Source: Crossaster papposus (Eukaryota > Echinodermata > Asteroidea > Velatida > Solasteridae). Taken from it: 64,000 nt of DNA. The position numbers and the translations under genes are program-made. The notes beneath the pieces are model-generated. The model searched no databases and was not told the DNA's origin. It saw only the letters and a list, made by a program, of their open reading frames with translations. The DNA is taken from assembly GCA_037893245.1 (NCBI GenBank), contig JBAIAA010000807.1:124001-188000 (forward strand), read 5' to 3'. This document shows positions 45,018-64,000 of this stretch, piece by piece. Position 1 is the first letter of the stretch. Every line of letters begins with the position of its first letter.

Positions 45018-45049
45018 GTCCTGTAGATCAGGTTTAACACTACCGCATG

Positions 45050-46561: not shown

Positions 46562-46661
46562 CTTTCTTGGTCAGTACCCGAGAGTTTGGTTGACCACAAC
46601 CTCGGTCTGCTCAGGATAATTATTTTCTTGAAAGTGATTTCATTTTCATTACAAATAGTTA

Positions 46662-46734
46662 TGCAGAGTGGTGAAGTGGGAGCGTGATGGGCCCATAACC
46701 CAGAGGCCCGAGGATCGAAAACCTCGCTCTGCTA
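46662..46734 (+). tRNA. tRNA-iMet-like (CAT), class B
   Basis: First copy of the array. TGCAGAG 5' end and 8-nt T loop (ATCGAAAA). Confidence 0.5.
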
Positions 46735-46838
46735 ACGAGGTATTTTTGCTTCACTGTTATTCAAATTTAATAATTATTTTAGAATGTTTTTAGAATGTCT
46801 GCTTTTATTTTGTTTGTTGTTTTTCTAAATTTACATGA

Positions 46839-46910
46839 GGCATGGTGGCGCAGTGGAAGCTTGCTGGGCCTATAACCCAGAGTGCCGAGGATCAAAACCT
46901 CGTTCTGCTG
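46839..46910 (+). tRNA. initiator-like tRNA (TAT), class C
   Basis: Left arm unit 1; reference copy of class C. Discriminator G. Confidence 0.5.
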
Positions 46911-47065
46911 CTAATACGTTTTTGGTATGACTTGAAGTACTCGACTCGGAGTGACAAAGTAGACCCTTTATTATTCAGTAACCGAGAGTTCGGATGATCA
47001 CAACCTCGGTCTGCTCAGGATAATTTTGTATTTGATAGGGATTTCATTTTCATTAAAAATAGTTA

Positions 47066-47137
47066 CGCAGAGTAGTGCAGCGGGAGCGTGATGGGCCCAT
47101 AGCCCAGAGGTCCGAGGACCAAAACCTCGCTTTGCTA
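47066..47137 (+). tRNA. tRNA-iMet-like (CAT), class D
   Basis: Left arm unit 1; reference copy of class D. A box TAGTGCAGCGGG fits consensus. Confidence 0.5.
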
Positions 47138-47239
47138 ACTAGGTATTTTTGCTTCACTGCTATTCACATTTAATAAATATTGTAGAATGTTTTTAGAATG
47201 TCTGCTTTCATTTTGTTTGCATTTTCTAAATTTACATGA

Positions 47240-47311
47240 GGCATAGTGGCGCAGTTGAAGCGTGCTGGGCCCATAACCCAGAGGTCCGAGGATCGAAACC
47301 TCGCTCTGCTA
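47240..47311 (+). tRNA. tRNA-iMet (CAT), class A
   Basis: Reference copy of class A. Keeps the three G-C pairs of the anticodon stem and ATCGAAA T loop typical of eukaryotic initiators; G1-T72 and one T5-C68 mismatch in the acceptor. T5 at 47317-47321. Confidence 0.7.
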
Positions 47312-47463
47312 ACAAGTTTTTGGTATGACATGAGGTACTCGACTCGGAGTGACAAAGTAGACACTTTCTTGGTCAGTACCCGAGAGTTTGGTTGACCACA
47401 ACCTCGGTCTGCTCAGGATAATTATTTTCTTGAAAGTGATTTCATTTTCATTACAAATAGTTA

Positions 47464-47535
47464 CGCAGAGTGGTGAAGTGGGAGCGTGATGGGCCCATAA
47501 CCCAGAGGCCCGAGGACCGAAACCTCGCTCTGCTG
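47464..47535 (+). tRNA. tRNA-iMet-like (CAT), class B
   Basis: 7-nt T loop ACCGAAA; discriminator G. Confidence 0.5.
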
Positions 47536-47639
47536 AAGAGGTATTTTTGCTTCACTGTTATTCAAATTTAATAATTATTTTAGAATGTTTTTAGAATGTC
47601 TGCTTTTATTTTGTTTGTTGTTTTTCTAAATTTACATGA

Positions 47640-47711
47640 GGCATGGTGGCGCAGTGGAAGCTTGCTGGGCCTATAACCCAGAGTGCCGAGGATCAAAACC
47701 TCGTTCTGCTG
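47640..47711 (+). tRNA. initiator-like tRNA (TAT), class C
   Basis: Left arm unit 2; trailer TAATAAG before T5. Confidence 0.5.
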
Positions 47712-47866
47712 CTAATAAGTTTTTGGTATGACTTGAAGTACTCGACTCAGAGTGACAAAGTAGACCCTTTCTTGGTCAGTAACCGAGAGTTCGGATGATC
47801 ACAACCTCGGTCTGCTCAGGATAATTTTGTATTTGATAGGGATTTCATTTTCATTAAAAATAGTTA

Positions 47867-47938
47867 CGCAGAGTAGTGCAGCGGGAGCGTGATGGGCCCA
47901 TAGCCCAGAGGTCCGAGGACCAAAACCTCGCTTTGCTA
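47867..47938 (+). tRNA. tRNA-iMet-like (CAT), class D
   Basis: Left arm unit 2. Confidence 0.5.
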
Positions 47939-48040
47939 ACTAGGTATTTTTGCTTCACTGCTATTCACATTTAATAAATATTGTAGAATGTTTTTAGAAT
48001 GTCTGCTTTCATTTTGTTTGCATTTTCTAAATTTACATGA

Positions 48041-48112
48041 GGCATAGTGGCGCAGTTGAAGCGTGCTGGGCCCATAACCCAGAGGTCCGAGGATCGAAAT
48101 CTCGCTCTGCTA
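48041..48112 (+). tRNA. tRNA-iMet (CAT), class A
   Basis: Left arm unit 2; one T-stem pair weakened to G-T. Confidence 0.65.
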
Positions 48113-48264
48113 ACAAGTTTTTGGTATGACATGAGGTACTCGACTCGGAGTGACAAAGTAGACACTTTCTTGGTCAGTACCCGGGAGTTTGGTTGACCAC
48201 AACCTCGGTCTGCTCAGGATAATTATTTTCTTGAAAGTGATTTCATTTTCATTACAAATAGTTA

Positions 48265-48337
48265 CGCAGAGTGGTGAAGTGGGAGCGTGATGGGCCCATA
48301 ACCCAGAGGCCCGAGGATCGAAAACCTCGCTCTGCTA
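48265..48337 (+). tRNA. tRNA-iMet-like (CAT), class B
   Basis: Left arm unit 3; 8-nt T loop. Confidence 0.5.
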
Positions 48338-48441
48338 ACGAGGTATTTTTGCTTCACTGTTATTCAAATTTAATAATTATTTTAGAATGTTTTTAGAATG
48401 TCTGCTTTTATTTTGTTTGTTGTTTTTCTAAATTTACATGA

Positions 48442-48513
48442 GGCATGGTGGCGCAGTGGAAGCTTGCTGGGCCTATAACCCAGAGTGCCGAGGATCAAAA
48501 CCTCGTTCTGCTG
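48442..48513 (+). tRNA. initiator-like tRNA (TAT), class C
   Basis: Left arm unit 3. Confidence 0.5.
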
Positions 48514-48668
48514 CTAATACGTTTTTGGTATGACTTGAAGTACTCGACTCAGAGTGACAAAGTAGACCCTTTCTTATTCAGTAACCGAGAGTTCGGATGA
48601 TCACAACCTCGGTCTGCTCAGGATAATTTTGTATTTGATAGGGATTTCATTTTCATTAAAAATAGTTA

Positions 48669-48740
48669 CGCAGATTAGTGCAGCGGGAGCGTGATGGGCC
48701 CATAGCCCAGAGGTCCGAGGACCAAAACCTCGCTTTGCTA
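48669..48740 (+). tRNA. tRNA-iMet-like (CAT), class D
   Basis: Acceptor G7 is T (CGCAGAT), losing a pair. Confidence 0.4.
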
Positions 48741-48842
48741 ACTAGGTATTTTTGCTTCACTGCTATTCACATTTAATAAATATTGTAGAATGTTTTTAGA
48801 ATGTCTGCTTTCATTTTGTTTGCATTTTCTAAATTTACATGA

Positions 48843-48914
48843 GGCATAGTGGCGCAGTTGAAGCGTGCTGGGCCCATAACCCAGAGGTCCGAGGATCGAA
48901 ACCTCGCTCTGCTA
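48843..48914 (+). tRNA. tRNA-iMet (CAT), class A
   Basis: Left arm unit 3; as reference. Confidence 0.7.
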
Positions 48915-49066
48915 ACAAGTTTTTGGTATGACATGAGGTACTCGACTCGGAGTGACAAAGTAGACACTTTCGTGGTCAGTACCCGAGAGTTTGGTTGACC
49001 ACAACCTCGGTCTGCTCAGGATAATTATTTTCTTGAAAGTGATTTCATTTTCATTACAAATAGTTA

Positions 49067-49139
49067 CGCAGAGTGGTGAAGTGGGAGCGTGATGGGCCCA
49101 TAACCCAGAGGCCCGAGGATCGAAAACCTCGCTCTGCTA
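49067..49139 (+). tRNA. tRNA-iMet-like (CAT), class B
   Basis: Left arm unit 4; 8-nt T loop. Confidence 0.5.
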
Positions 49140-49243
49140 ACGAGGTATTTTTGCTTCACTGTTATTCAAATTTAATAATTATTTTAGAATGTTTTTAGAA
49201 TGTCTGCTTTTATTTTGTTTGTTGTTTTTCTAAATTTACATGA

Positions 49244-49315
49244 GGCATGGTGGCGCAGTGGAAGCTTGCTGGGCCTATAACCCAGAGTGCCGAGGATCAA
49301 AACCTCGTTCTGCTG
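49244..49315 (+). tRNA. initiator-like tRNA (TAT), class C
   Basis: Left arm unit 4. Confidence 0.5.
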
Positions 49316-49470
49316 CTAATACGTTTTTGGTATGACTTGAAGTACTCGACTCAGAGTGACAAAGTAGACCCTTTCTTATTCAGTAACCGAGAGTTCGGAT
49401 GATCACAACCTCGGTCTGCTCAGGATAATTTTGTATTTGATAGGGATTTCATTTTCATTAAAAATAGTTA

Positions 49471-49542
49471 CGCAGATTAGTGCAGCGGGAGCGTGATGGG
49501 CCCATAGCCCAGAGGTCCGAGGACCAAAACCTCGCTTTGCTA
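49471..49542 (+). tRNA. tRNA-iMet-like (CAT), class D
   Basis: Same CGCAGAT acceptor change as 48669. Confidence 0.4.
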
Positions 49543-49644
49543 ACTAGGTATTTTTGCTTCACTGCTATTCACATTTAATAAATATTGTAGAATGTTTTTA
49601 GAATGTCTGCTTTCATTTTGTTTGCATTTTCTAAATTTACATGA

Positions 49645-49716
49645 GGCATAGTGGCGCAGTTGAAGCGTGCTGGGCCCATAACCCAGAGGTCCGAGGATCA
49701 AAACCTCGCTCTGCTA
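49645..49716 (+). tRNA. tRNA-iMet (CAT), class A
   Basis: Left arm unit 4; T loop ATCAAAA as in class C. Confidence 0.6.
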
Positions 49717-49868
49717 ACAAGTTTTTGGTATGACATGAGGTACTCGACTCGGAGTGACAAAGTAGACACTTTCTTGGTCAGTACCCGAGAGTTTGGTTGA
49801 CCACAACCTCGGTCTGCTCAGGATAATTATTTTCTTGAAAGTGATTTCATTTTCATTACAAATAGTTA

Positions 49869-49941
49869 CGCAGAGTGGTGAAGTGGGAGCGTGATGGGCC
49901 CATAACCCAGAGGCCCGAGGATCGAAAACCTCGCTCTGCTA
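49869..49941 (+). tRNA. tRNA-iMet-like (CAT), class B
   Basis: Left arm unit 5; 8-nt T loop. Confidence 0.5.
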
Positions 49942-50045
49942 ACGAGGTATTTTTGCTTCACTGTTATTCAAATTTAATAATTATTTTAGAATGTTTTTAG
50001 AATGTCTGCTTTTATTTTGTTTGTTGTTTTTCTAAATTTACATGA

Positions 50046-50117
50046 GGCATGGTGGCGCAGTGGAAGCTTGCTGGGCCTATAACCCAGAGTGCCGAGGATC
50101 AAAACCTCGTTCTGCTG
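50046..50117 (+). tRNA. initiator-like tRNA (TAT), class C
   Basis: Left arm unit 5. Confidence 0.5.
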
Positions 50118-50272
50118 CTAATACGTTTTTGGTATGACTTGAAGTACTCGACTCAGAGTGACAAAGTAGACCCTTTCTTATTCAGTAACCGAGAGTTCGG
50201 ATGATCACAACCTCGGTCTGCTCAGGATAATTTTGTATTTGATAGGGATTTCATTTTCATTAAAAATAGTTA

Positions 50273-50344
50273 CGCAGAGTAGTGCAGCGGGAGCGTGATG
50301 GGCCCATAGCCCAGAGGTCCGAGGACCAAAACCTCGCTTTGCTA
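50273..50344 (+). tRNA. tRNA-iMet-like (CAT), class D
   Basis: Left arm unit 5; normal CGCAGAG. Confidence 0.5.
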
Positions 50345-50446
50345 ACTAGGTATTTTTGCTTCACTGCTATTCACATTTAATAAATATTGTAGAATGTTTT
50401 TAGAATGTCTGCTTTCATTTTGTTTGCATTTTCTAAATTTAAATGA

Positions 50447-50518
50447 GGCATAGTGGCGCAGTTGAAGCGTGCTGGGCCCATAACCCAGAGGTCCGAGGAT
50501 CGAAACCTCGCTCTGCTA
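50447..50518 (+). tRNA. tRNA-iMet (CAT), class A
   Basis: Left arm unit 5; as reference, with AAATGA leader instead of ACATGA. Confidence 0.7.
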
Positions 50519-50670
50519 ACAAGTTTTTGGTATGACATGAGGTACTCGACTCGGAGTGACAAAGTAGACACTTTCTTGGTCAGTACCCGAGAGTTTGGTT
50601 GACCACAACCTCGGTCTGCTCAGGATAATTATTTTCTTGAAAGTGATTTCATTTTCATTACAAATAGTTA

Positions 50671-50742
50671 CGCAGAGTAGTGAAGTGGGAGCGTGATGGG
50701 CCCATAACCCAGAGGCCCGAGGACCGAAACCTCGCTCTGCTA
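50671..50742 (+). tRNA. tRNA-iMet-like (CAT), class B
   Basis: Base 9 is A (AGTAGTGAAG); 7-nt T loop. Confidence 0.5.
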
Positions 50743-50846
50743 AAGAGGTATTTTTGCTTCACTGTTATTTAAATTTAATAATTATTTTAGAATGTTTTTA
50801 GAATGTCTGCTTTTATTTTGTTTGTTGTTTTTCTAAATTTACATGA

Positions 50847-50918
50847 GGCATGGTGGCGCAGTGGAAGCTTGCTGGGCCTATAACCCAGAGTGCCGAGGAT
50901 CAAAACCTCGTTCTGCTG
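50847..50918 (+). tRNA. initiator-like tRNA (TAT), class C
   Basis: Last C of the left arm. Confidence 0.5.
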
Positions 50919-51073
50919 CTAATAAGTTTTTGGTATGACTTGAAGTACTCGACTCAGAGTGACAAAGTAGACCCTTTCTTGGTCAGTAACCGAGAGTTCG
51001 GATGATCACAACCTCGGTCTGCTCAGGATAATTTTGTATTTGAGAGGGATTTCATTTTCATTAAAAATAGTTA

Positions 51074-51145
51074 CGCAGAGTAGTGCAGCGGGAGCGTGAT
51101 GGGCCCATAGCCCAGAGGTCCGAGGACCAAAACCTCGCTTTGCTA
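51074..51145 (+). tRNA. tRNA-iMet-like (CAT), class D
   Basis: Last D of the left arm. Confidence 0.5.
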
Positions 51146-51247
51146 ACTAGGTATTTTTGCTTCACTGCTATTCACATTTAATAAATATTGTAGAATGTTT
51201 TTAGAATGTCTGCTTTCATTTTGTTTGCATTTTCTAAATTTACATGA

Positions 51248-51277
51248 GGCATAGTGGCGCAGTTGAAGCGTGCTGGG
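51248..51277 (+). pseudogene. Class A tRNA 5' half at the palindrome centre
   Basis: Runs from GGCATAG to the CTGGG anticodon stem and then turns into the inverted arm. Confidence 0.9.
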
Positions 51278-51314
51278 TTATGGGCCCATCACGCTCCCGC
51301 TGCACTACTCTGCG
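51273..51314 (-). pseudogene. Class D-like tRNA 5' half at the palindrome centre
   Basis: Minus-strand CGCAGAGTAGTGCAGCGGG to CCCATAACCCAG; shares the CTGGG at 51273-51277 with the left half. A38 as in A/B instead of G38. Confidence 0.9.
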
Positions 51315-51469
51315 TAACTATTTTTAATGAAAATGAAATCCCCATCAAATACAAAATTATCCTGAGCAGACCGAGGTTGTGATCATCCGAACTCTCGGTT
51401 ACTGACCAAGAAAGGGTCTACTTTGTCACTCTGAGTCGAGTACTTCAAGTCATACCAAAAACTTATTAG

Positions 51470-51541
51470 CAGCAGAACAAGGTTTTGATCCTCGGCACTC
51501 TGGGTTATAGGCCCAGCAAGCTTCCACTGCGCCACCATGCC
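51470..51541 (-). tRNA. initiator-like tRNA (TAT), class C
   Basis: CCTTG in the T stem costs a pair. Confidence 0.4.
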
Positions 51542-51645
51542 TCATGTAAATTTAGAAAAACAACAAACAAAATAAAAGCAGACATTCTAAAAACATTCTA
51601 AAATAATTATTAAATTTGAATAACAGTGAAGCAAAAATACCTCTT

Positions 51646-51717
51646 TAGCAGAGCGAGGTTTCGGTCCTCGGGCCTCTGGGTTATGGGCCCATCACGCTCC
51701 CACTTCACCACTCTGCG
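51646..51717 (-). tRNA. tRNA-iMet-like (CAT), class B
   Basis: 7-nt T loop ACCGAAA, as most of the right arm. Confidence 0.5.
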
Positions 51718-51869
51718 TAACTATTTGTAATGAAAATGAAATCACTTTCAAGAAAATAATTATCCTGAGCAGACCGAGGTTGTGGTCAACCAAACTCTCG
51801 GGTACTGACCAAGAAAGTGTCTACTTTGTCACTCCGAGTCGAGTACCTCATGTCATACCAAAAACTTGT

Positions 51870-51941
51870 TAGCAGAGCGAGGTTTCGATCCTCGGACCTC
51901 TGGGTTATGGGCCCAGCACGCTTCAACTGCGCCACTATGCC
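51870..51941 (-). tRNA. tRNA-iMet (CAT), class A
   Basis: First A of the right arm; as reference. Confidence 0.7.
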
Positions 51942-52043
51942 TCATGTAAATTTAGAAAATGCAAACAAAATGAAAGCAGACATTCTAAAAACATTCTACA
52001 ATATTTATTAAATGTGAATAGCAGTGAAGCAAAAATACCTAGT

Positions 52044-52115
52044 TAGCAAAGCGAGGTTTTGGTCCTCGGACCTCTGGGCTATGGGCCCATCACGCTCCCA
52101 CTTCACCACTCTGCG
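52044..52115 (-). tRNA. tRNA-iMet-like (CAT), D/B chimera
   Basis: 3' half of class D, 5' half of class B (GTGAAGTGGG). Confidence 0.45.
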
Positions 52116-52267
52116 TAACTATTTGTAATGAAAATGAAATCACTTTCAAGAAAATAATTATCCTGAGCAGACCGAGGTTGTGGTCAACCAAACTCTCGGG
52201 TACTGACCAAGAAAGTGTCTACTTTGTCACTCCGAGTCGAGTACCTCATGTCATACCAAAAACTTGT

Positions 52268-52339
52268 TAGCAGAGCGAGGTTTCGATCCTCGGACCTCTG
52301 GGTTATGGGCCCAGCACGCTTCAACTGCGCCACTATGCC
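52268..52339 (-). tRNA. tRNA-iMet (CAT), class A
   Basis: In a 398-bp short unit. Confidence 0.7.
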
Positions 52340-52441
52340 TCATGTAAATTTAGAAAATGCAAACAAAATGAAAGCAGACATTCTAAAAACATTCTACAAT
52401 ATTTATTAAATGTGAATAGCAGTGAAGCAAAAATACCTAGT

Positions 52442-52513
52442 TAGCAAAGCGAGGTTTTGGTCCTCGGACCTCTGGGCTATGGGCCCATCACGCTCCCGCT
52501 GCACTACTCTGCG
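52442..52513 (-). tRNA. tRNA-iMet-like (CAT), class D
   Basis: In a 398-bp short unit. Confidence 0.5.
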
Positions 52514-52665
52514 TAACTATTTTTAATGAAAATGAAATCCCTATCAAATACAAAATTATCCTGAGCAGACCGAGGTTGTGATCATCCGAACTCTCGGTTA
52601 CTGACCAAGAAAGTGTCTACTTTGTCACTCCGAGTCGAGTACCTCATGTCATACCAAAAACTTGT

Positions 52666-52737
52666 TAGCAGAGCGAGGTTTCGATCCTCGGACCTCTGGG
52701 TTATGGGCCCAGCACGCTTCAACTGCGCCACTATGCC
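52666..52737 (-). tRNA. tRNA-iMet (CAT), class A
   Basis: As reference. Confidence 0.7.
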
Positions 52738-52839
52738 TCATGTAAATTTAGAAAATGCAAACAAAATGAAAGCAGACATTCTAAAAACATTCTACAATAT
52801 TTATTAAATGTGAATAGCAGTGAAGCAAAAATACCTAGT

Positions 52840-52911
52840 TAGCAAAGCGAGGTTTTGGTCCTCGGACCTCTGGGCTATGGGCCCATCACGCTCCCGCTGC
52901 ACTACTCTGCG
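52840..52911 (-). tRNA. tRNA-iMet-like (CAT), class D
   Basis: As class reference. Confidence 0.5.
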
Positions 52912-53066
52912 TAACTATTTTTAATGAAAATGAAATCCCTATCAAATACAAAATTATCCTGAGCAGACCGAGGTTGTGATCATCCGAACTCTCGGTTACT
53001 GACCAAGAAAGGGTCTACTTTGTCACTCTGAGTCGAGTACTTCAAGTCATACCAAAAACTTATTAG

Positions 53067-53138
53067 CAGCAGAACAAGGTTTTGATCCTCGGCACTCTGG
53101 GTTATAGGCCCAGCAAGCTTCCACTGCGCCACCATGCC
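53067..53138 (-). tRNA. initiator-like tRNA (TAT), class C
   Basis: Shares the CCTTG T-stem change with 51470. Confidence 0.4.
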
Positions 53139-53242
53139 TCATGTAAATTTAGAAAAACAACAAACAAAATAAAAGCAGACATTCTAAAAACATTCTAAAA
53201 TAATTATTAAATTTGAATAACAGTGAAGCAAAAATACCTCTT

Positions 53243-53314
53243 TAGCAGAGCGAGGTTTCGGTCCTCGGGCCTCTGGGTTATGGGCCCATCACGCTCCCAC
53301 TTCACCACTCTGCG
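53243..53314 (-). tRNA. tRNA-iMet-like (CAT), class B
   Basis: As the right-arm form. Confidence 0.5.
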
Positions 53315-53466
53315 TAACTATTTGTAATGAAAATGAAATCACTTTCAAGAAAATAATTATCCTGAGCAGACCGAGGTTGTGGTCAACCAAACTCTCGGGT
53401 ACTGACCAAGAAAGTGTCTACTTTGTCACTCCGAGTCGAGTACCTCATGTCATACCAAAAACTTGT

Positions 53467-53538
53467 TAGCAGAGCGAGGTTTCGATCCTCGGACCTCTGG
53501 GTTATGGGCCCAGCACGCTTCAACTGCGCCACTATGCC
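53467..53538 (-). tRNA. tRNA-iMet (CAT), class A
   Basis: As reference. Confidence 0.7.
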
Positions 53539-53640
53539 TCATGTAAATTTAGAAAATGCAAACAAAATGAAAGCAGACATTCTAAAAACATTCTACAATA
53601 TTTATTAAATGTGAATAGCAGTGAAGCAAAAATACCTAGT

Positions 53641-53712
53641 TAGCAAAGCGAGGTTTTGGTCCTCGGACCTCTGGGCTATGGGCCCATCACGCTCCCACTT
53701 CACCACTCTGCG
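53641..53712 (-). tRNA. tRNA-iMet-like (CAT), D/B chimera
   Basis: Same exchange as 52044. Confidence 0.45.
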
Positions 53713-53864
53713 TAACTATTTGTAATGAAAATGAAATCACTTTCAAGAAAATAATTATCCTGAGCAGACCGAGGTTGTGGTCAACCAAACTCTCGGGTAC
53801 TGACCAAGAAAGTGTCTACTTTGTCACTCCGAGTCGAGTACCTCATGTCATACCAAAAACTTGT

Positions 53865-53936
53865 TAGCAGAGCGAGGTTTCGATCCTCGGACCTCTGGGT
53901 TATGGGCCCAGCACGCTTCAACTGCGCCACTATGCC
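53865..53936 (-). tRNA. tRNA-iMet (CAT), class A
   Basis: In a 398-bp short unit. Confidence 0.7.
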
Positions 53937-54038
53937 TCATGTAAATTTAGAAAATGCAAACAAAATGAAAGCAGACATTCTAAAAACATTCTACAATATT
54001 TATTAAATGTGAATAGCAGTGAAGCAAAAATACCTAGT

Positions 54039-54110
54039 TAGCAAAGCGAGGTTTTGGTCCTCGGACCTCTGGGCTATGGGCCCATCACGCTCCCGCTGCA
54101 CTACTCTGCG
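54039..54110 (-). tRNA. tRNA-iMet-like (CAT), class D
   Basis: In a 398-bp short unit. Confidence 0.5.
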
Positions 54111-56513: not shown

Positions 56514-56665
56514 TAACTATTTGTAATGAAAATGAAATCACTTTCAAGAAAATAATTATCCTGAGCAGACCGAGGTTGTGGTCAACCAAACTCTCGGGTA
56601 CTGACCAAGAAAGTGTCTACTTTGTCACTCCGAGTCGAGTACCTCATGTCATACCAAAAACTTGT

Positions 56666-56737
56666 TAGCAGAGCGAGGTTTTGATCCTCGGACCTCTGGG
56701 TTATGGGCCCAGCACGCTTCAACTGCGCCACTATGCC
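56666..56737 (-). tRNA. tRNA-iMet (CAT), class A
   Basis: T loop ATCAAAA. Confidence 0.6.
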
Positions 56738-56839
56738 TCATGTAAATTTAGAAAATGCAAACAAAATGAAAGCAGACATTCTAAAAACATTCTACAATAT
56801 TTATTAAATGTGAATAGCAGTGAAGCAAAAATACCTAGT

Positions 56840-56911
56840 TAGCAAAGCGAGGTTTTGGTCCTCGGACCTCTGGGCTATGGGCCCATCACGCTCCCGCTGC
56901 ACTACTCTGCG
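56840..56911 (-). tRNA. tRNA-iMet-like (CAT), class D
   Basis: As class reference. Confidence 0.5.
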
Positions 56912-57066
56912 TAACTATTTTTAATGAAAATGAAATCCCTATCAAATACAAAATTATCCTGAGCAGACCGAGGTTGTGATCATCCGAACTCTCGGTTACT
57001 GACCAAGAAAGGGTCTACTTTGTCACTCTGAGTCGAGTACTTCAAGTCATACCAAAAACTTATTAG

Positions 57067-57138
57067 CAGCAGAACGAGGTTTTGATCCTCGGCACTCTGG
57101 GTTATAGGCCCAGCAAGCTTCCACTGCGCCACCATGCC
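57067..57138 (-). tRNA. initiator-like tRNA (TAT), class C
   Basis: Downstream spacer switches to the A-type. Confidence 0.5.
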
Positions 57139-57242
57139 TCATGTAAATTTAGAAAAACAACAAACAAAATAAAAGCAGACATTCTAAAAACATTCTACAA
57201 TATTTATTAAATGTGAATAACAGTGAAGCAAAAATACCTCTT

Positions 57243-57314
57243 CAGCAGAGCGAGGTTTCGGTCCTCGGGCCTCTGGGTTATGGGCCCATCACGCTCCCAC
57301 TTCACCACTCTGCG
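57243..57314 (-). tRNA. tRNA-iMet-like (CAT), class B
   Basis: Discriminator G. Confidence 0.5.
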
Positions 57315-57466
57315 TAACTATTTGTAATGAAAATGAAATCACTTTCAAGAAAATAATTATCCTGAGCAGACCGAGGTTGTGGTCAACCAAACTCTCGGGT
57401 ACTGACCAAGAAAGTGTCTACTTTGTCACTCCGAGTCGAGTACCTCATGTCATACCAAAAACTTGT

Positions 57467-57538
57467 TAGCAGAGCGAGGTTTCGATCCTCGGACCTCTGG
57501 GTTATGGGCCCAGCACGCTTCAACTGCGCCACTATGCC
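57467..57538 (-). tRNA. tRNA-iMet (CAT), class A
   Basis: As reference. Confidence 0.7.
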
Positions 57539-57640
57539 TCATGTAAATTTAGAAAATGCAAACAAAATGAAAGCAGACATTCTAAAAACATTCTACAATA
57601 TTTATTAAATGTGAATAGCAGTGAAGCAAAAATACCTAGT

Positions 57641-57712
57641 TAGCAAAGCGAGATTTTGGTCCTCGGACCTCTGGGCTATGGGCCCATCACGCTCCCGCTG
57701 CACTACTCTGCG
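57641..57712 (-). tRNA. tRNA-iMet-like (CAT), class D
   Basis: T stem reads CGAGG/TCTCG. Confidence 0.45.
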
Positions 57713-57867
57713 TAACTATTTTTAATGAAAATGAAATCCCTATCAAATACAAAATTATCCTGAGCAGACCGAGGTTGTGATCATCCGAACTCTCGGTTAC
57801 TGACCAAGAAAGGGTCTACTTTGTCACTCTGAGTCGAGTACTTCAAGTCATACCAAAAACTTATTAG

Positions 57868-57939
57868 CAGCAGAACGAGGTTTTGATCCTCGGCACTCTG
57901 GGTTATAGGCCCAGCAAGCTTCCACTGCGCCACCATGCC
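57868..57939 (-). tRNA. initiator-like tRNA (TAT), class C
   Basis: As class reference. Confidence 0.5.
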
Positions 57940-58043
57940 TCATGTAAATTTAGAAAAACAACAAACAAAATAAAAGCAGACATTCTAAAAACATTCTAAA
58001 ATAATTATTAAATTTGAATAACAGTGAAGCAAAAATACCTCTT

Positions 58044-58115
58044 TAGCAAAGCGAGGTTTTGGTCCTCGGGCCTCTGGGTTATGGGCCCATCACGCTCCCA
58101 CTTCACCACTCTGCG
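58044..58115 (-). tRNA. tRNA-iMet-like (CAT), B/D chimera
   Basis: Class D 3' end (CCAAAACCTCGCTTTGCT) on a class B body. Confidence 0.45.
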
Positions 58116-58267
58116 TAACTATTTGTAATGAAAATGAAATCACTTTCAAGAAAATAATTATCCTGAGCAGACCGAGGTTGTGGTCAACCAAACTCTCGGG
58201 TACTGACCAAGAAAGTGTCTACTTTGTCACTCCGAGTCGAGTACCCCATGTCATACCAAAAACTTGT

Positions 58268-58339
58268 TAGCAGAGCGAGGTTTCGATCCTCGGACCTCTG
58301 GGTTATGGGCCCAGCACGCTTCAACTGCGCCACTATGCC
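58268..58339 (-). tRNA. tRNA-iMet (CAT), class A
   Basis: As reference. Confidence 0.7.
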
Positions 58340-58441
58340 TCATGTAAATTTAGAAAATGCAAACAAAATGAAAGCAGACATTCTAAAAACATTCTACAAT
58401 ATTTATTAAATGTCAATAGCAGTGAAGCAAAAATACCTAGT

Positions 58442-58513
58442 TAGCAAAGCGAGGTTTTGGTCCTCGGACCTCTGGGCTATGGGCCCATCACGCTCCCGCT
58501 GCACTACTCTGCG
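58442..58513 (-). tRNA. tRNA-iMet-like (CAT), class D
   Basis: As class reference. Confidence 0.5.
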
Positions 58514-58668
58514 TAACTATTTTTAATGAAAATGAAATCCCTATCAAATACAAAATTATCCTGAGCAGACCGAGGTTGTGATCATCCGAACTCTCGGTTA
58601 CTGACCAAGAAAGGGTCTACTTTGTCACTCTGAGTCGAGTACTTCAAGTCATACCAAAAACTTATTAG

Positions 58669-58740
58669 CAGCAGAACGAGGTTTTGATCCTCGGCACTCT
58701 GGGTTATAGGCCCAGCAAGCTTCCACTGCGCCACCATGCC
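58669..58740 (-). tRNA. initiator-like tRNA (TAT), class C
   Basis: As class reference. Confidence 0.5.
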
Positions 58741-58844
58741 TCATGTAAATTTAGAAAAACAACAAACAAAATAAAAGCAGACATTCTAAAAACATTCTAA
58801 AATAATTATTAAATTTGAATAACAGTGAAGCAAAAATACCTCTT

Positions 58845-58916
58845 TAGCAAAGCGAGGTTTTGGTCCTTGGGCCTCTGGGTTATGGGCCCATCACGCTTCC
58901 ACTTCACCACTCTGCG
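58845..58916 (-). tRNA. tRNA-iMet-like (CAT), B/D chimera
   Basis: As 58044, with extra changes in T stem (CCAAGG) and D loop. Confidence 0.4.
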
Positions 58917-59068
58917 TAACTATTTGTAATGAAAATGAAATCACTTTCAAGAAAATAATTATCCTGAGCAGACCGAGGTTGTGGTCAACCAAACTCTCGG
59001 GTACTGACCAAGAAAGTGTCTACTTTGTCACTCCGAGTCGAGTACCTCATGTCATACCAAAAACTTGT

Positions 59069-59140
59069 TAGCAGAGCGAGGTTTCGATCCTCGGACCTCT
59101 GGGTTATGGGCCCAGCACGCTTCAACTGCGCCACTATGCC
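59069..59140 (-). tRNA. tRNA-iMet (CAT), class A
   Basis: As reference; spacer has one substitution. Confidence 0.7.
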
Positions 59141-59242
59141 TCATGTAAATTTAGAAAATGCAAACAAAATGAAATCAGACATTCTAAAAACATTCTACAA
59201 TATTTATTAAATGTGAATAGCAGTGAAGCAAAAATACCTAGT

Positions 59243-59314
59243 TAGCAAAGCGAGGTTTTGGTCCTCGGACCTCTGGGCTATGTGCCAATCACGCTCCAGC
59301 TGCACTACTCTGCG
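59243..59314 (-). pseudogene. Class D tRNA with broken anticodon arm
   Basis: Anticodon arm reads ATTGGCACATAGCCC; stem pairing is lost. Confidence 0.7.
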
Positions 59315-59469
59315 TAACTATTTTTAATGAAAATGAAATCCCTATCAAATACAAAATTATCCTGAGCAGACCGAGGTTGTGATCATCCGAACTCTCGGTT
59401 ACTGACCAAGAAAGGGTCTACTTTGTCACTCTGAGTCGAGTACTTCAAGTCATACCAAAAACTTATTAG

Positions 59470-59541
59470 CAGCAGAACGAGGTTTTGATCCTCGGCACTC
59501 TGGGTTATAGGCCCAGCAAGCTTCCACTGCGCCACCATGCC
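59470..59541 (-). tRNA. initiator-like tRNA (TAT), class C
   Basis: First of a C-C duplication with 176-bp spacing. Confidence 0.5.
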
Positions 59542-59645
59542 TCATGTAAATTTAGAAAAACAACAAACAAAATAAAAGCAGACATTCTAAAAACATTCTA
59601 AAATAATTATTAAATTTGAATAACAGTGAAGCAAAAATACCTCTT

Positions 59646-59717
59646 TAGCAAAGCGAGGTTTTGATCCTCGGCACTCTGGGTTATAGGCCTAGCAAGCTTC
59701 CACTGCGCCACCATGCC
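59646..59717 (-). tRNA. initiator-like tRNA (TAT), C with D-type 3' end
   Basis: 3' end CTCGCTTTGCTA from class D/B; one change in the anticodon stem (GCTAGGCC). Confidence 0.4.
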
Positions 59718-59821
59718 TCATGTAAATTTAGAAAAACAACAAACAAAATAAAAGCAGACATTCTAAAAACATTCTAAAATAATTATTAAATTTGAATAAC
59801 GGTGAAGCAAAAATACCTCTT

Positions 59822-59893
59822 TAGCAGAGCAAGGTTTCGGTCCTCAGGCCTCTGGGTTATGGGCCCATCACGCTCCCACTTCACCACTCTGCG
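59822..59893 (-). tRNA. tRNA-iMet-like (CAT), class B
   Basis: T stem changed on both sides (TGAGG/CCTTG), partly unpaired. Confidence 0.4.
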
Positions 59894-60045
59894 TAACTAT
59901 TTGTAATGAAAATGAAATCACTTTCAAGAAAATAATTATCCTGAGCAGACCGAGGTTGTGGTCAACCAAACTCTCAGGTACTGACCAAGAAAGTGTCTAC
60001 TTTGTCACTCCGAGTCGAGTACCTCATGTCATACCAAAAACTTGT

Positions 60046-60117
60046 TAGCAGAGCGAGGTTTCGATCCTCGGACCTCTGGGTTATGGGCCCAGCACGCTTC
60101 AACTGCGCCACTATGCC
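60046..60117 (-). tRNA. tRNA-iMet (CAT), class A
   Basis: As reference. Confidence 0.7.
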
Positions 60118-60219
60118 TCATGTAAATTTAGAAAATGCAAACAAAATGAAAGCAGACATTCTAAAAACATTCTACAATATTTATTAAATGTGAATAGCAG
60201 TGAAGCAAAAATACCTAGT

Positions 60220-60291
60220 TAGCAAAGCGAGGTTTTGGTCCTCGGACCTCTGGGCTATGGGCCCATCACGCTCCCGCTGCACTACTCTGCG
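60220..60291 (-). tRNA. tRNA-iMet-like (CAT), class D
   Basis: As class reference. Confidence 0.5.
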
Positions 60292-60446
60292 TAACTATTT
60301 TTAATGAAAATGAAATCCCTATCAAATACAAAATTATCCTGAGCAGACCGAGGTTGTGATCATCCGAACTCTCGGTTACTGACCAAGAAAGGGTCTACTT
60401 TGTCACTCCGAGTCGAGTACTTCAAGTCATACCAAAAACTTATTAG

Positions 60447-60518
60447 CAGCAGAACGAGGTTTTGATCCTCGGCACTCTGGGTTATAGGCCCAGCAAGCTT
60501 CCACTGCGCCACCATGCC
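60447..60518 (-). tRNA. initiator-like tRNA (TAT), class C
   Basis: As class reference. Confidence 0.5.
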
Positions 60519-60622
60519 TCATGTAAATTTAGAAAAACAACAAACAAAATAAAAGCAGACATTCTAAAAACATTCTAAAATAATTATTAAATTTGAATAA
60601 CAGTGAAGCAAAAATACCTCTT

Positions 60623-60694
60623 TAGCAGAGCGAGGTTTCGGTCCTCGGGCCTCTGGGTTATGGGCCCATCACGCTCCCACTTCACCACTCTGCG
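60623..60694 (-). tRNA. tRNA-iMet-like (CAT), class B
   Basis: As the right-arm form. Confidence 0.5.
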
Positions 60695-60846
60695 TAACTA
60701 TTTGTAATGAAAATGAAATCACTTTCAAGAAAATAATTATCCTGAGCAGACCGAGGTTGTGGTCAACCAAACTCTCGGGTACTGACCAAGAAATTGTCTA
60801 CTTTGTCACTCCGAGTCGAGTACCTCATGTCATACCAAAAACTTGT

Positions 60847-60918
60847 TAGCAGAGCGAGGTTTCGATCCTCGGACCTCTGGGTTATGGGCCCAGCACGCTT
60901 CAACTGCGCCACTATGCC
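60847..60918 (-). tRNA. tRNA-iMet (CAT), class A
   Basis: As reference. Confidence 0.7.
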
Positions 60919-61020
60919 TCATGTAAATTTAGAAAATGCAAACAAAATGAAAGCAGACATTCTAAAAACATTCTACAATATTTATTAAATGTGAATAGCA
61001 GTGAAGCAAAAATACCTAGT

Positions 61021-61092
61021 TAGCAAAGCGAGGTTTTGGTCCTCGGACCTCTGGGCTATGGGCCCATAACGCTCCCGCTGCACTACTCTGCT
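61021..61092 (-). tRNA. tRNA-iMet-like (CAT), class D
   Basis: 5' end AGCAGAG, the canonical initiator acceptor with A1; base 26-27 changed (CGTTATGGG). Confidence 0.5.
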
Positions 61093-61247
61093 TAACTATT
61101 TTTAATGAAAATGAAATCCCTATCAAATACAAAATTATCCTGAGCAGACCGAGGTTGTGATCATCCGAACTCTCGGTTACTGACCAAGAAAGGGTCTACT
61201 TTGTCACTCTGAGTCGAGTACTTCAAGTCATACCAAAAACTTATTAG

Positions 61248-61319
61248 CAGCAGAACGAGGTTTTGATCCTCGGCACTCTGGGTTATAGGCCCAGCAAGCT
61301 TCCACTGCGCCACCATGCC
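61248..61319 (-). tRNA. initiator-like tRNA (TAT), class C
   Basis: As class reference. Confidence 0.5.
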
Positions 61320-61423
61320 TCATGTAAATTTAGAAAAACAACAAACAAAATAAAAGCAGACATTCTAAAAACATTCTAAAATAATTATTAAATTTGAATA
61401 ACAGTGAAGCAAAAATACCTCTT

Positions 61424-61495
61424 TAGCAGAGTGAGGTTTCGGTCCTCGGGCCTCTGGGTTATGGGCCCATCACGCTCCCACTTCACCACTCTGCG
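61424..61495 (-). tRNA. tRNA-iMet-like (CAT), class B
   Basis: T stem CGAGG/CCTCA, one pair lost. Confidence 0.45.
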
Positions 61496-61647
61496 TAACT
61501 ATTTGTAATGAAAATGAAATCACTTTCAAGAAAATAATTATCCTGAGCAGACCGAGGTTGTGGTCAACCAAACTCTCGGGTACTGACCAAGAAAGTGTCT
61601 ACTTTGTCACTCCGAGTCGAGTACCTCATGTCATACCAAAAACTTGT

Positions 61648-61719
61648 TAGCAGAGCGAGGTTTCGATCATCGGACCTCTGGGTTATGGGCCCAGCACGCT
61701 TCAACTGCGCCACTATGCC
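61648..61719 (-). tRNA. tRNA-iMet (CAT), class A
   Basis: T stem CGATG/CCTCG, one pair lost. Confidence 0.55.
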
Positions 61720-61821
61720 TCATGTAAATTTAGAAAATGCAAACAAAATGAAAGCAGACATTCTAAAAACATTCTACAATATTTATTAAATGTAAATAGC
61801 AGTGAAGCAAAAATACCTAGT

Positions 61822-61886
61822 TAGCAAAGCGAGGTTTTGGTCCTCGGACCTCTGGGCCCATCACGCTCCCGCTGCACTACTCTGCG
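61822..61886 (-). pseudogene. Class D tRNA without anticodon loop
   Basis: Seven bases of the anticodon arm are deleted (GATGGGCCCAGAGG). Confidence 0.85.
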
Positions 61887-62041
61887 TAACTATTTTTAAT
61901 GAAAATGAAATCCCTATCAAATACAAAATTATCCTGAGCAGACCGAGGTTGTGATCATCCGAACTCTCGGTTACTGACCAAGAAAGGGTCTACTTTGTCA
62001 CTCTGACTCGAGTACTTCAAGTCATACCAAAAACTTATTAG

Positions 62042-62113
62042 CAGCAGAACGAGGTTTTGATCCTCGGCACTCTGGGTTATAGGCCCAGCAAGCTTCCACT
62101 GCGCCACCATGCC
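62042..62113 (-). tRNA. initiator-like tRNA (TAT), class C
   Basis: As class reference. Confidence 0.5.
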
Positions 62114-62217
62114 TCATGTAAATTTAGAAAAACAACAAACAAAATAAAAGCAGACATTCTAAAAACATTCTAAAATAATTATTAAATTTGAATAACAGTG
62201 AAGCAAAAATACCTCTT

Positions 62218-62289
62218 TAGCAGAGCGAGGTTTCAGTCCTCGGGCCTCTGGGTTATGGGCCCATCACGCTCCCACTTCACCACTCTGCG
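62218..62289 (-). tRNA. tRNA-iMet-like (CAT), class B
   Basis: T loop ACTGAAA. Confidence 0.45.
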
Positions 62290-62441
62290 TAACTATTTGT
62301 AATGAAAATGAAATCACTTTCAAGAAAATAATTATCCTGAGCAGACTGAGGTTGTGGTCAACCAAACTCTCGGGTACTGACCAAGAAAGTGTCTACTTTG
62401 TCACTCCGAGTCGAGTACCTCATGTCATACTAAAAACTTGT

Positions 62442-62513
62442 TAGCAGAGCGAGGTTTCGATCCTCGGACCTCTGGGTTATGGGCCCAGCACGCTTCAACT
62501 GCGCCACTATGCC
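62442..62513 (-). tRNA. tRNA-iMet (CAT), class A
   Basis: Leader switches to the class C spacer, so the next gene is B. Confidence 0.7.
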
Positions 62514-62617
62514 TCATGTAAATTTAGAAAAACAACAAACAAAATAAAAGCAGACATTCTAAAAACATTCTAAAATAATTATTAAATTTGAATAACAGTG
62601 AAGCAAAAATACCTCTT

Positions 62618-62689
62618 TAGCAGAGCGAGGTTTCGGTCCTCGGGCCTCTGGGTTATGGGCCCATCAGGCTCCCACTTCACCACTCTGCG
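62618..62689 (-). tRNA. tRNA-iMet-like (CAT), class B
   Basis: D-stem change (GGAGCCTG). Confidence 0.45.
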
Positions 62690-62841
62690 TAACTATTTGT
62701 AATGAAAATGAAATCACTTTCAAGAAAATAATTATCCCGAGCAGACCGAGGTTGTGGTCAACCAAACTCTCGGGTACTGACCAAGAAAGTGTCTACTTTG
62801 TCACTCCGAGTCGAGTACCTCATGTCATACCAAAAACTTGT

Positions 62842-62913
62842 TAGCAGAGCGAGGTTTTGATCGTCGGACCTCTGGGTTATGGGCCCAGCACGCTTCAACT
62901 GCGCCACTATGCC
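62842..62913 (-). tRNA. tRNA-iMet (CAT), class A
   Basis: T stem CGACG/CCTCG and loop ATCAAAA. Confidence 0.5.
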
Positions 62914-63015
62914 TCATGTAAATTTAGAAAATGCAAACAAAATGAAAGCAGACATTCTAAAAACATTCTACAATATTTATTAAATGTGAATAGCAGTGAA
63001 ATAAAAATACCTAGT

Positions 63016-63087
63016 TAGCAAAGCGAGGTTTTGGTCCTCGGACCTCTGGGCTATGGGCCCATCACGCTCCCGCTGCACTACTCTGCG
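63016..63087 (-). tRNA. tRNA-iMet-like (CAT), class D
   Basis: As class reference. Confidence 0.5.
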
Positions 63088-63242
63088 TAACTATTTTTAA
63101 TGAAAATGAAATCCCTATCAAATACAAAATTATCCTGAGCAGACCGAGGTTGTGATCATCCGAACTCTCGGTTACTGACCAAGAAAGGGTCTACTTTGTC
63201 ACTCTGAGTCGAGTACTTCAAGTCATACCAAAAACTTATTAG

Positions 63243-63314
63243 CAGCAGAACGAGGTTTTGATCCTCGGCACTCTGGGTTATAGGCCCAGCAAGCTTCCAC
63301 TGCGCCACCATGCC
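63243..63314 (-). tRNA. initiator-like tRNA (TAT), class C
   Basis: As class reference. Confidence 0.5.
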
Positions 63315-63418
63315 TCATGTAAATTTAGAAAAACAACAAACAAAATAAAAGCAGACATTCTAAAAACATTCTAAAATAATTATTAAATTTGAATAACAGT
63401 GAAGCAAAAATACCTCTT

Positions 63419-63490
63419 TAGCAGAGCGAGGTTTCGGTCCTCGGGCCTCTGGGTTATGGGCCCATCACGCTCCCACTTCACCACTCTGCG
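63419..63490 (-). tRNA. tRNA-iMet-like (CAT), class B
   Basis: As the right-arm form. Confidence 0.5.
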
Positions 63491-63642
63491 TAACTATTTG
63501 TAATGAAAATGAAATCACTTTCAAGAAAATAATTATCCTGAGCAGACCGAGGTTGTGGTCAACCAAACTCTCGGGTACTGACCAAGAAAGTGTCTACTTT
63601 GTCACTCCGAGTCGAGTACCTCATGTCATACCAAAAACTTGT

Positions 63643-63714
63643 TAGCAGAGCGAGGTTTCGATCCTCGGACCTCTGGGTTATGGGCCCAGCACGCTTCAAC
63701 TGCGCCACTATGCC
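63643..63714 (-). tRNA. tRNA-iMet (CAT), class A
   Basis: As reference; last complete A in the window. Confidence 0.7.
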
Positions 63715-63816
63715 TCATGTAAATTTAGAAAATGCAAACAAAATGAAAGCAGACATTCTAAAAACATTCTACAATATTTATTAAATGTGAATAGCAGTGA
63801 AGCAAAAATACCTAGT

Positions 63817-63888
63817 TAGCAAAGCGAGGTTTTGGTCCTCGGACCTCTGGACTATGGGCCCATCACGCTCCCGCTGCACTACTCTGCG
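63817..63888 (-). tRNA. tRNA-iMet-like (CAT), class D
   Basis: Anticodon stem GGG/TCC, one pair lost. Confidence 0.4.
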
Positions 63889-64000
63889 TAACTATTTTTA
63901 ATGAAAATGAAATCCCTATCAAATACAAAATTATCCTGAGCAGACCGAGGTTGTGATCATCCGAACTCTCGGTTACTGACCAAGAAAGGGTCTACTTTGT

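Follow-up and report, generated by a model that had tools for sequence, protein, structure and literature searches.

The window, a stretch of 64,000 nucleotides of Crossaster papposus DNA (contig JBAIAA010000807.1, hereafter C807, positions 124,001 to 188,000), is filled from position 46,569 to its end by a tandem array of 801-bp units. Each unit consists of two half-units, of 403 and 398 bp, and each half-unit holds, in this order, a half-tRNA relic (R), a tRNA-like gene of class B and one of class A; the stretch 46974..47774 on the + strand is an example, reading R2-B2-A1-R1-B1-A2. Tandem Repeats Finder returned a period of 398 at 46,562-51,277, 51,273-59,689 and 59,645-64,000. A consensus scan of the window found 131 modules, namely 87 tRNA-like copies (23 A1, 20 A2, 19 B1 and 25 B2, the last counting the half gene at an inversion junction) and 44 relics (22 R1 and 22 R2). 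An earlier note, made from the letters alone, had described a satellite built from initiator-tRNA-like genes, with a period of 801 bp, each unit bearing four such genes and two half-tRNA relics, and in this it was correct.

That note missed three things: the array changes direction, A2 has the anticodon TAT, and every class has defects. The satellite is not a single direct array. The tRNA sense lies on the + strand in 46569..51277, with 11 complete half-units plus parts, and on the - strand in 51278..64000, from where the array runs on past the window, to position 198,000 of C807 at least. The inversion junction (51248..51314, with the switch at 51,277/51,278) falls inside the anticodon stem and loop: the 5' part of A1 (30 nt, as far as the anticodon-stem GGG) abuts a class-B 5' part in reverse complement. 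Among the 42 complete half-units of the window, R1-B1-A2 accounts for 17 and R2-B2-A1 for 19, the other 6 being hybrids or bearing a duplication. One half-unit of 579 bp (59407..59985, - strand) has an extra 176 bp and a middle gene that is A2 on its 5' side and B on its 3' side; it is the product of unequal exchange inside a tRNA. The break points of hybrid and duplicated half-units fall inside tRNA.

The left edge of the array is the end of a DIRS/Ngaro-like retroelement (42849..46568, - strand). It has split direct repeats in the arrangement A1...B1A2...B2 (letters of the element, not of the tRNA classes), and its Pfam matches, to zf-CCHC (E 0.009) and Dam (E 0.003), are weak and under the cut-off. 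An Rfam match to eukaryotic small-subunit rRNA was recorded as well; like the initiator sequence, it would fit an animal.

Structure of the tRNA-like genes

In functional eukaryotic initiator tRNAs the acceptor stem is fully paired and includes A1-U72, the anticodon is CAT and its stem has three G-C pairs, and the T loop carries A54. Much of what the earlier note read from the letters held up when all copies were counted. C33 is present in 86 of the 87 copies, and 83 keep the anticodon stem's three G-C pairs; a T5 lies shortly downstream in 86, the sole exception being the inversion junction. A is the first base of the T loop in every class's commonest form, also in A1 and A2, for which an A54-type loop had been claimed. 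The anticodon is CAT in A1 (23/23), B1 (19/19) and B2 (24/25), and TAT in A2 (20/20). The A1-U72 pair and the fully paired acceptor stem are absent from the commonest form of every class. Structural defects are fixed per class, and every class has them: in their most frequent form, A1 and A2 combine G.U at 1-72 with U5xC68, and B1 and B2 show CxU at 1-72; one B2 copy in 25 starts with A.

The example unit, all on the + strand, illustrates these defects. After the relic R2, a tRNA 3' half (46974..47023), comes a B2 gene (47066..47137) with mismatches C1xU72 and A27xG43 and the T loop ACCAAAA. Next stands the best copy of the window, an A1 gene of 49.8 bits (47240..47311) with a G1.U72 wobble, a U5xC68 mismatch, an intact B box and a D loop AGTTGAA where the canonical gene has AGTGGAA. 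The relic R1 (47372..47421) is followed by a B1 gene (47464..47535), a class with three mispaired stem positions in its commonest form, and by an A2 copy (47640..47711) with the anticodon TAT, two mispaired positions and four wobble pairs. Elsewhere, a B2 copy (61815..61886, - strand) has a short deletion in the anticodon loop and stem.

With the gathering score of 29 bits as threshold, the Rfam tRNA model passes 61 of the 87 copies: all 23 A1 (39.5-49.8 bits), 19 of the 20 A2 (33.9-36.6 bits) and 19 of the 44 class-B copies (29.4-35.6 bits for those that pass). Scores below threshold in all classes, which the earlier note had named as a mark of an inert satellite, are thus not what we found. 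The passing copies nevertheless score some 9 to 29 bits lower than the canonical initiator gene (58.7 bits, against 49.8 for A1 and 35.5 for A2). ARAGORN called 21 tRNA-Met in the window. As to the relics, R is a genuine tRNA 3' half (alignment scores of 44 and 56 versus a shuffle maximum of 27); the flanks of A and B align no better than shuffles.

The two internal promoter boxes, said earlier to be kept, are kept in part. The B box is canonical in 19/23 A1 copies and the A box in 19/20 A2 copies, but the commonest B1 and B2 forms are altered in both boxes. Given its good score, its canonical B box and a T5 in 23/23 copies, A1 could, from its sequence, be transcribed by Pol III.

Variation within the array

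The tRNA stretches of the window's dialect show no visible constraint. Half-units I and II differ at 14/141 tRNA sites and at 21/207 spacer sites (p = 1.0). When changes were polarised by the consensus of related units on C146, tRNA and spacer had changed at 10/144 versus 8/204 sites in one lineage and at 5/144 versus 13/204 in the other, and in neither lineage were tRNA changes significantly fewer. Among 121 pure half-units of C807 and C13, tRNA and spacer do not differ significantly in variable sites (p = 0.42 and 0.41), in copies that homogenisation makes non-independent and to which conversion between classes adds variants. A alone is variable at 4/72 sites in half I, versus 24/209 in spacer (p = 0.18), and at 13/72 in half II, versus 36/204 (p = 1.0).

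B is the most variable part both in the window and in half I of C807 and C13, where it exceeds the spacer (17/72, p = 0.019). We considered B as a hot spot of transcription-driven mutation but do not claim this, as some of its variants are the base of the other class, i.e. conversion, and CpG sites add to them. Likewise, R and the spacer that follows it are the least variable part of the 801-bp dialect, which might suggest a conserved functional hairpin; this was set aside, as between the halves R differs at 4/50 sites and the following spacer at 7/42. Transitions are concentrated at CpG, with 19/54 variable sites versus 35/286 at other C/G (p = 0.00013); for transversions the figures are 6/54 and 30/286. 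In the window's half II alone the CpG signal is absent (3/30 versus 19/368, p = 0.22).

The satellite family in the genome

We searched a genome of roughly one billion bases. A 34-base pattern of class A was matched at 9,915 places and its reversed control at 0, which excludes chance. A 25-mer of the relic has 18,736 occurrences, corresponding to about 7 Mb, and a 34-mer of A2 has 6,029; the 801-bp dialect comprises about 6,000 units. The family is present on C13, C146 and C807, each read in part, in differing dialects, orientations and hybrids. Neither the class-A pattern nor the canonical 5' pattern has an exact match in viral_contigs, where records near this genome are possibly excluded.

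The closest source of the tRNA parts is the genome's own canonical initiator tRNA, whose 72-mer has 1,281 exact occurrences; among the matches listed (100 of the 1,281), all positions are on C146, the site of the sister dialect. Separate canonical genes, which the earlier note would have taken as a sign of an inert satellite if they did all the work of initiation, do exist: at least five stand-alone genes on C885 are canonical at 72/72 positions. Over their 72 nt these five do not differ in any of the ten pairings, and their 100-base flanks are 58-91% identical. The gene is thus more conserved than its flanks on C885, and not so in the window's dialect. The C885 genes are probably the working initiator genes.

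Perfect canonical copies also occur inside the C146 arrays, in the stretches read, and canonical 5' halves lie in tandem spacing on C262, known there by position only. The A consensus of C146 units is canonical at 72/72 positions in 62 units, which include loci fetched by a canonical match, and at 71/72 in 28 units of four longer stretches; B has 7 changes from canonical. This hints at past or present selection on A in these units. Yet in the 62 units A varies as much as the spacer or more (pi 0.084 versus 0.039-0.062), and 17 of 107 C146 genes with A-type flanks are perfect, in a sample enriched for canonical-match loci.

Origin and fate of the satellite

We think it probable that an initiator gene became a satellite whose dialect in the window has decayed, is homogenised by recombination between tRNA copies and is no source of initiator tRNA. 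An initiator-tRNA gene would have been duplicated into a unit of about 398 bp holding A, a good gene, B, a decaying one, and the half-gene relic R. This unit would then have turned into a satellite, whose form nearest to the start would persist on C146. Two diverged half-units would have fused into the 801-bp dialect, with damage to both A genes. Unequal exchange and conversion would make, swap and equalise copies, with the tRNA stretches as the homology and the GC-rich anticodon hairpin perhaps as the break point. The window copies would most likely be pseudogenes, CpG-methylated in the germline and unused for protein starts, which the stand-alone C885 genes would serve.

Supply of translation-initiation tRNA, one of three roles proposed in the earlier note, is unlikely for the window's own copies because of their structural defects and their spacer-like rate of evolution; their lower Rfam scores and the existence of the C885 genes also leave it unsupported. 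Among the three, a Pol III-derived satellite, inert or selfish, suits the window best. The supply idea survives for other arrays of the family, given the perfect copies that they hold. In that case dosage would have been amplified: intact copies on C146, and probably on C262, would supply initiator tRNA when demand is very high, for instance during egg growth, as a maternal set next to a few somatic genes, and the window's dialect would be its decayed margin. The excess of perfect copies over the five known stand-alone genes speaks for this, as does the near-canonical A beside a much changed B on C146. So do two precedents, each from the consulted part of its source: in zebrafish, 5S genes are split into maternal and somatic sets and the tRNA genes of chr4 are proposed to be maternal (PMC11075544), and root-cap cells of Arabidopsis activate a heterochromatic tRNA array (PMC12308677). 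But the high variation of A and the rarity of perfect genes on C146 are at odds with such a role, and the dialect with damaged genes is the more numerous. We thus regard dosage amplification as unlikely. That more than 1,000 intact genes in the arrays of C146, and probably C262, might form a germline or maternal initiator store, with the family shedding decaying selfish dialects, we hold to be rather unlikely. If there were a maternal store, the size of the satellite would set the egg's capacity to start translation, and a housekeeping gene would have become a live satellite.

The third proposed role, a Pol III/TFIIIC chromatin domain, would make the copies binding sites for boundary function, clustering or nucleation of heterochromatin, so that the boxes would matter and the cloverleaf would not. 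The B boxes of A1, the A boxes of A2 and the nearly universal T5 are what one would expect; yet both boxes carry changes in B1 and B2 as most often found, and the tRNA stretches overall are no less variable than the spacer, which makes this role quite unlikely. Satellites born from SINEs are documented in reptiles, in the part of PMC10702118 consulted, and the unit might likewise descend from a tRNA-headed SINE and not from a tRNA gene. This is very unlikely: the other 46.5 kb of this window hold no dispersed copy of the unit (best E 0.18) and none of SINE type with body and tail, a T5 directly follows each full tRNA with no SINE body in sight, and A on C146 is canonical or one base off. Finally, misassembly could create repeat number or inversion, since long tandem arrays are error-prone, the junction was seen once and haplotype copies are maybe counted twice, but the recurrence of the family on three contigs in differing forms, and the tandem spacing on C262, render an artefact highly improbable.

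On the reading that we favour, the satellite is caught between gene and repeat, with stand-alone genes, an intermediate dialect that holds exact genes and a decayed, more numerous one in a single genome. Two questions arise: can an essential translation function be borne by satellite arrays, and does the amplification of Pol III genes track use, or recombination alone? In practical terms, tens of thousands of tRNA-like repeats can swell the tRNA counts of a genome annotation.

Relation to known tRNA arrays

The tandem 3.18-kb tDNA repeat of Xenopus laevis includes initiator tRNA genes within a functional set of several tRNAs, whereas only initiator-type sequence is seen here, decayed in the window. 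The Arabidopsis SYY cluster has far fewer genes than this satellite. In the part of PMC12308677 consulted, SYY is a tandem cluster of tRNA(Ser) and tRNA(Tyr) genes, highly methylated and silent in most tissues; it differs from our array in its serine and tyrosine tRNAs and in its demonstrated use by specific root cells. Nematostella, zebrafish and stickleback have large tDNA clusters with many tRNA genes and pseudogenes; according to the sections consulted (PMC2888827, PMC11075544), those of Nematostella and zebrafish hold many isoacceptors in mostly heterogeneous neighbour pairs, whereas here one isoacceptor forms a satellite.

tRNA-derived satellites are already known, and several named ones are reported to be transcribed by Pol III in vivo or in vitro. 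The array described here is of this kind, being long, tandem and near-identical, with a unit that descends from a tRNA gene; we found no satellite built from initiator tRNA among the open PMC papers that our searches listed. As far as the consulted part of PMC10702118 goes, OAX or 'satellite I' of Xenopus and PolIII/TAN of the newt Cynops are tandem families with a tRNA-derived stretch in the unit, which in PolIII/TAN is about 360 nt long and, by the title of a work cited there, of tRNA-Glu origin. Our satellite shares with both the tandem organisation and the tRNA-derived stretch; within the same limits of that source, it differs in its initiator origin, in having three tRNA-derived pieces per half-unit and a higher-order unit of two halves, and in the sister dialect that carries exact genes.

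An initiator tRNA gene turned satellite

The array of the window is a decayed tRNA-derived satellite, and the family to which it belongs is an initiator tRNA gene turned satellite. It occupies positions 46,569-64,000, with a period of 398 bp (TRF), and parsing with class consensus sequences resolved it into 131 modules, 87 tRNA-like genes (classes A1, A2, B1 and B2) and 44 half-tRNA relics (R1 and R2), in the order R-B-A in the tRNA sense. The 42 complete half-units comprise 17 R1-B1-A2 (403-404 bp), 19 R2-B2-A1 (398 bp, one of 391) and six others: three R1-B2-A1 and one each of R1-B1-A1, R2-B2-A2 and R1-B1-A2-A2. Two half-units, whose consensus sequences are about 90% alike, make up the 801-bp unit; the unit of tRNA-like genes and relics described in the earlier note is real.

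Several features which that note had read as conserved are indeed so: C33 is present in 86 of the 87 tRNA-like copies, the three G-C pairs of the anticodon stem are intact in 83, and a T5 terminator follows 86, the sole exception being an inversion junction. Its claim that the internal promoter boxes are kept holds for the canonical B box in 19/23 A1 copies and the canonical A box in 19/20 A2 copies, but not for the commonest B1 and B2 forms, which are changed in both boxes. The Rfam tRNA model scores 61/87 copies above its threshold, and ARAGORN calls a tRNA at 21. Over 21 pairs, the commonest form of each class has Watson-Crick/wobble/mismatch counts of 18/2/1 for A1 (G1.U72 and U5xC68; D loop AGTTGAA), 15/4/2 for A2 (anticodon TAT in 20/20 copies), 16/2/3 for B1 and 16/3/2 for B2; human and fly initiator tRNAs have 20/1/0 and 19/2/0. 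The T loop is one base longer in 4/19 B1 copies. These four, with an extra A, lie at window positions 46662, 48265, 49067 and 49869, all in the + segment.

In the module parse the tRNA sense is + through 51,277 and − from there on. At the switch A1 breaks off after 30 nt, with the GGG of its anticodon stem, and what follows is a class-B gene in reverse complement; letters of that stem belong to both. A B2 copy (61,815-61,886) lacks a few bases near the same anticodon region, and an extra 176 bp at 59,407-59,985 is accompanied by a gene with an A2 front and a B back. Since the breaks of the inversion, the deletion and the duplication all fall inside tRNA sequence, the array is reshaped by exchange within it. 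On contig C885, near the stand-alone genes described below, one partial copy starts with the anticodon, and a second is missing seven bases next to it. These few cases suggest that the anticodon hairpin may play a particular part in the breaks.

Copies across the genome

The satellite is larger than the earlier note could see from the window alone (C807:124,001-188,000). Exact pattern matches on both strands of the assembly (1.02 Gb, 1,841 contigs; reversed-pattern control 0 for each) numbered 9,915 for a class-A 34-mer with two free places, 6,029 for an A2 34-mer, 2,655 for the 5' 34-mer of the canonical gene (the intact genomic initiator, 72 nt) with two free places, 1,281 for its whole 72-mer and 18,736 for a relic 25-mer. 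Multiplying the relic count by ~400 bp per half-unit gives some 7 Mb, or 0.7% of the assembly, an estimate that counts exact matches alone and includes some shorter R-R spacings. All 100 canonical 5' halves among the matches listed (100 of 2,655) lie on contig C146 at 4.3-4.4 Mb, and all 100 canonical 72-mers among the matches listed (100 of 1,281) on C146 at 4.3-4.4 and 5.4-5.9 Mb. More canonical 5' halves occur on C146, as far as 6.7 Mb, and on C262 (0.99-2.55 Mb), where tandem spacings such as 174 bp point to probable arrays. The C146 arrays come in blocks, since stretches at 4.80 and 5.30 Mb held no satellite unit.

C146 carries a sister dialect of the satellite. Its consensus, from 62 standard ~398-bp units out of 64 kb that include loci fetched by canonical-gene match, contains an A identical to the canonical gene, a B at 65/72 and R; 28 C146 units from four longer stretches (L061, L062, L063, L069) give A 71/72 and B again 65/72. 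B thus has seven changes from canonical and A none or one. This is somewhat unlikely under free drift of both from one ancestor (one-sided 0.008 for 0 vs 7, 0.035 for 1 vs 7), so until recently the A gene may have been maintained or seeded anew. Single C146 copies are not visibly guarded, because diversity in the 62 units is no lower in A (0.084) and B (0.076) than in the spacers (0.040, 0.062, 0.039); perfect genes are 17/107 among those with A-type flanks. In the dialect of C807 and C13 both A genes are damaged, and the units are more uniform than on C146.

A canonical initiator elsewhere in the genome, which the earlier note had proposed to seek, exists as at least five stand-alone genes on C885. 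Canonical 5' halves preceded by a base other than A number four, and those preceded by A without a G before it 84 (36 on C146, 44 on C262, 4 on C885). Five of these 88 are C885 copies at 563-574 kb that stand apart from the satellite; of the other 83, the six loci that were read (three from each set) are all inside arrays. Five is a minimum, as any gene preceded by GA would hide among satellite copies. The cluster (L082 590-7934 and L068 1502-1573) also holds partial copies, and an upstream stretch is common to four of the genes. Each gene is 72/72 canonical with its own flank: the genes are identical in all ten pairs while their 100-base flanks are 58-91% identical, the signature that a working gene under selection would leave. 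An initiator pseudogene nearby (L068 573-644, minus strand; 92% to canonical) is altered in acceptor stem and anticodon.

Constraint and CpG variation

In the C807/C13 dialect, neither the 121 half-units nor the comparison of halves I and II showed slower evolution of tRNA than of spacer. The halves differ at 14/141 tRNA and 21/207 spacer sites (p = 1.0). Polarised by the C146 consensus, changes in tRNA and spacer were 10/144 vs 8/204 in half I only, 5/144 vs 13/204 in half II only and 5/144 vs 3/204 in both (p > 0.2 for each). Among 121 pure half-units from C807 and C13 (27 of 148 parsed were omitted because their length differed or their class was mixed), variable sites were 21/144 in tRNA vs 24/209 in spacer for half I (p 0.42) and 31/144 vs 36/204 for half II (p 0.41). 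Against spacer, A alone had 4/72 in half I (p 0.18) and 13/72 in half II (p 1.0), and B alone 17/72 in half I (p 0.019, B more variable) and 18/72 in half II (p 0.23). Weak constraint on A2 would be compatible with these counts.

In the same half-units C-to-T or G-to-A variants affect 19/54 CpG vs 35/286 other C/G sites (p = 0.00013), and transversions 6/54 vs 30/286 (p = 0.81). The 62 C146 units give 16/28 vs 45/144 (p 0.016) and 8/28 vs 43/144 (p 1.0). When variants of every kind are counted in the window by itself, half I shows an excess at CpG (7/22 vs 11/381); half II shows none (3/30 vs 19/368, p = 0.22). The transition excess hints at germline CpG methylation, whose trace it matches.

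Known relatives

Published papers describe tandem families with a tRNA-like stretch in Xenopus, Cynops, Rana and, doubtfully, Hydromantes (PMC10702118), tRNA-derived parts in Harttia catfish satellites (PMC11955569), big tDNA clusters (PMC2888827) and Pol III arrays that are silent or active at certain stages in Arabidopsis (PMC12308677) and zebrafish (PMC11075544). No satellite built from initiator tRNA was found in the open-access literature searched.

Array edge and neighbouring elements

The array starts at the end of a DIRS/Ngaro-like retroelement (window 42849-46568, minus strand) with split direct repeats (46420-46568/43901-44049 and 44034-44191/42840-42997) and weak zinc-knuckle and Dam-like matches. 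The satellite unit shares CTTTCTT with the element's two ends and with the joint inside it, and no satellite module was found left of it within the window, which suggests that a recombinase-type insertion, then loss or exchange, may have set the edge. Farther left, inverted arms of 661 nt, 96% complementary and 6.7 kb apart (2581-10643), perhaps delimit a large DNA transposon; of the ORFs between them (3541-9471), the four tested had no Pfam match. The window also holds three arrays of a 42-bp repeat (24570-24973, 25774-26213 and 31045-31485, the third in the opposite orientation to the first two), a shortened eukaryotic small-subunit rRNA relic (32230-33348, minus strand; Rfam, 546 bits, 1.1 kb vs a 1.8-kb model) and a DDE_3 transposase fragment (20858-21316, minus strand; Pfam E 1.5e-7).
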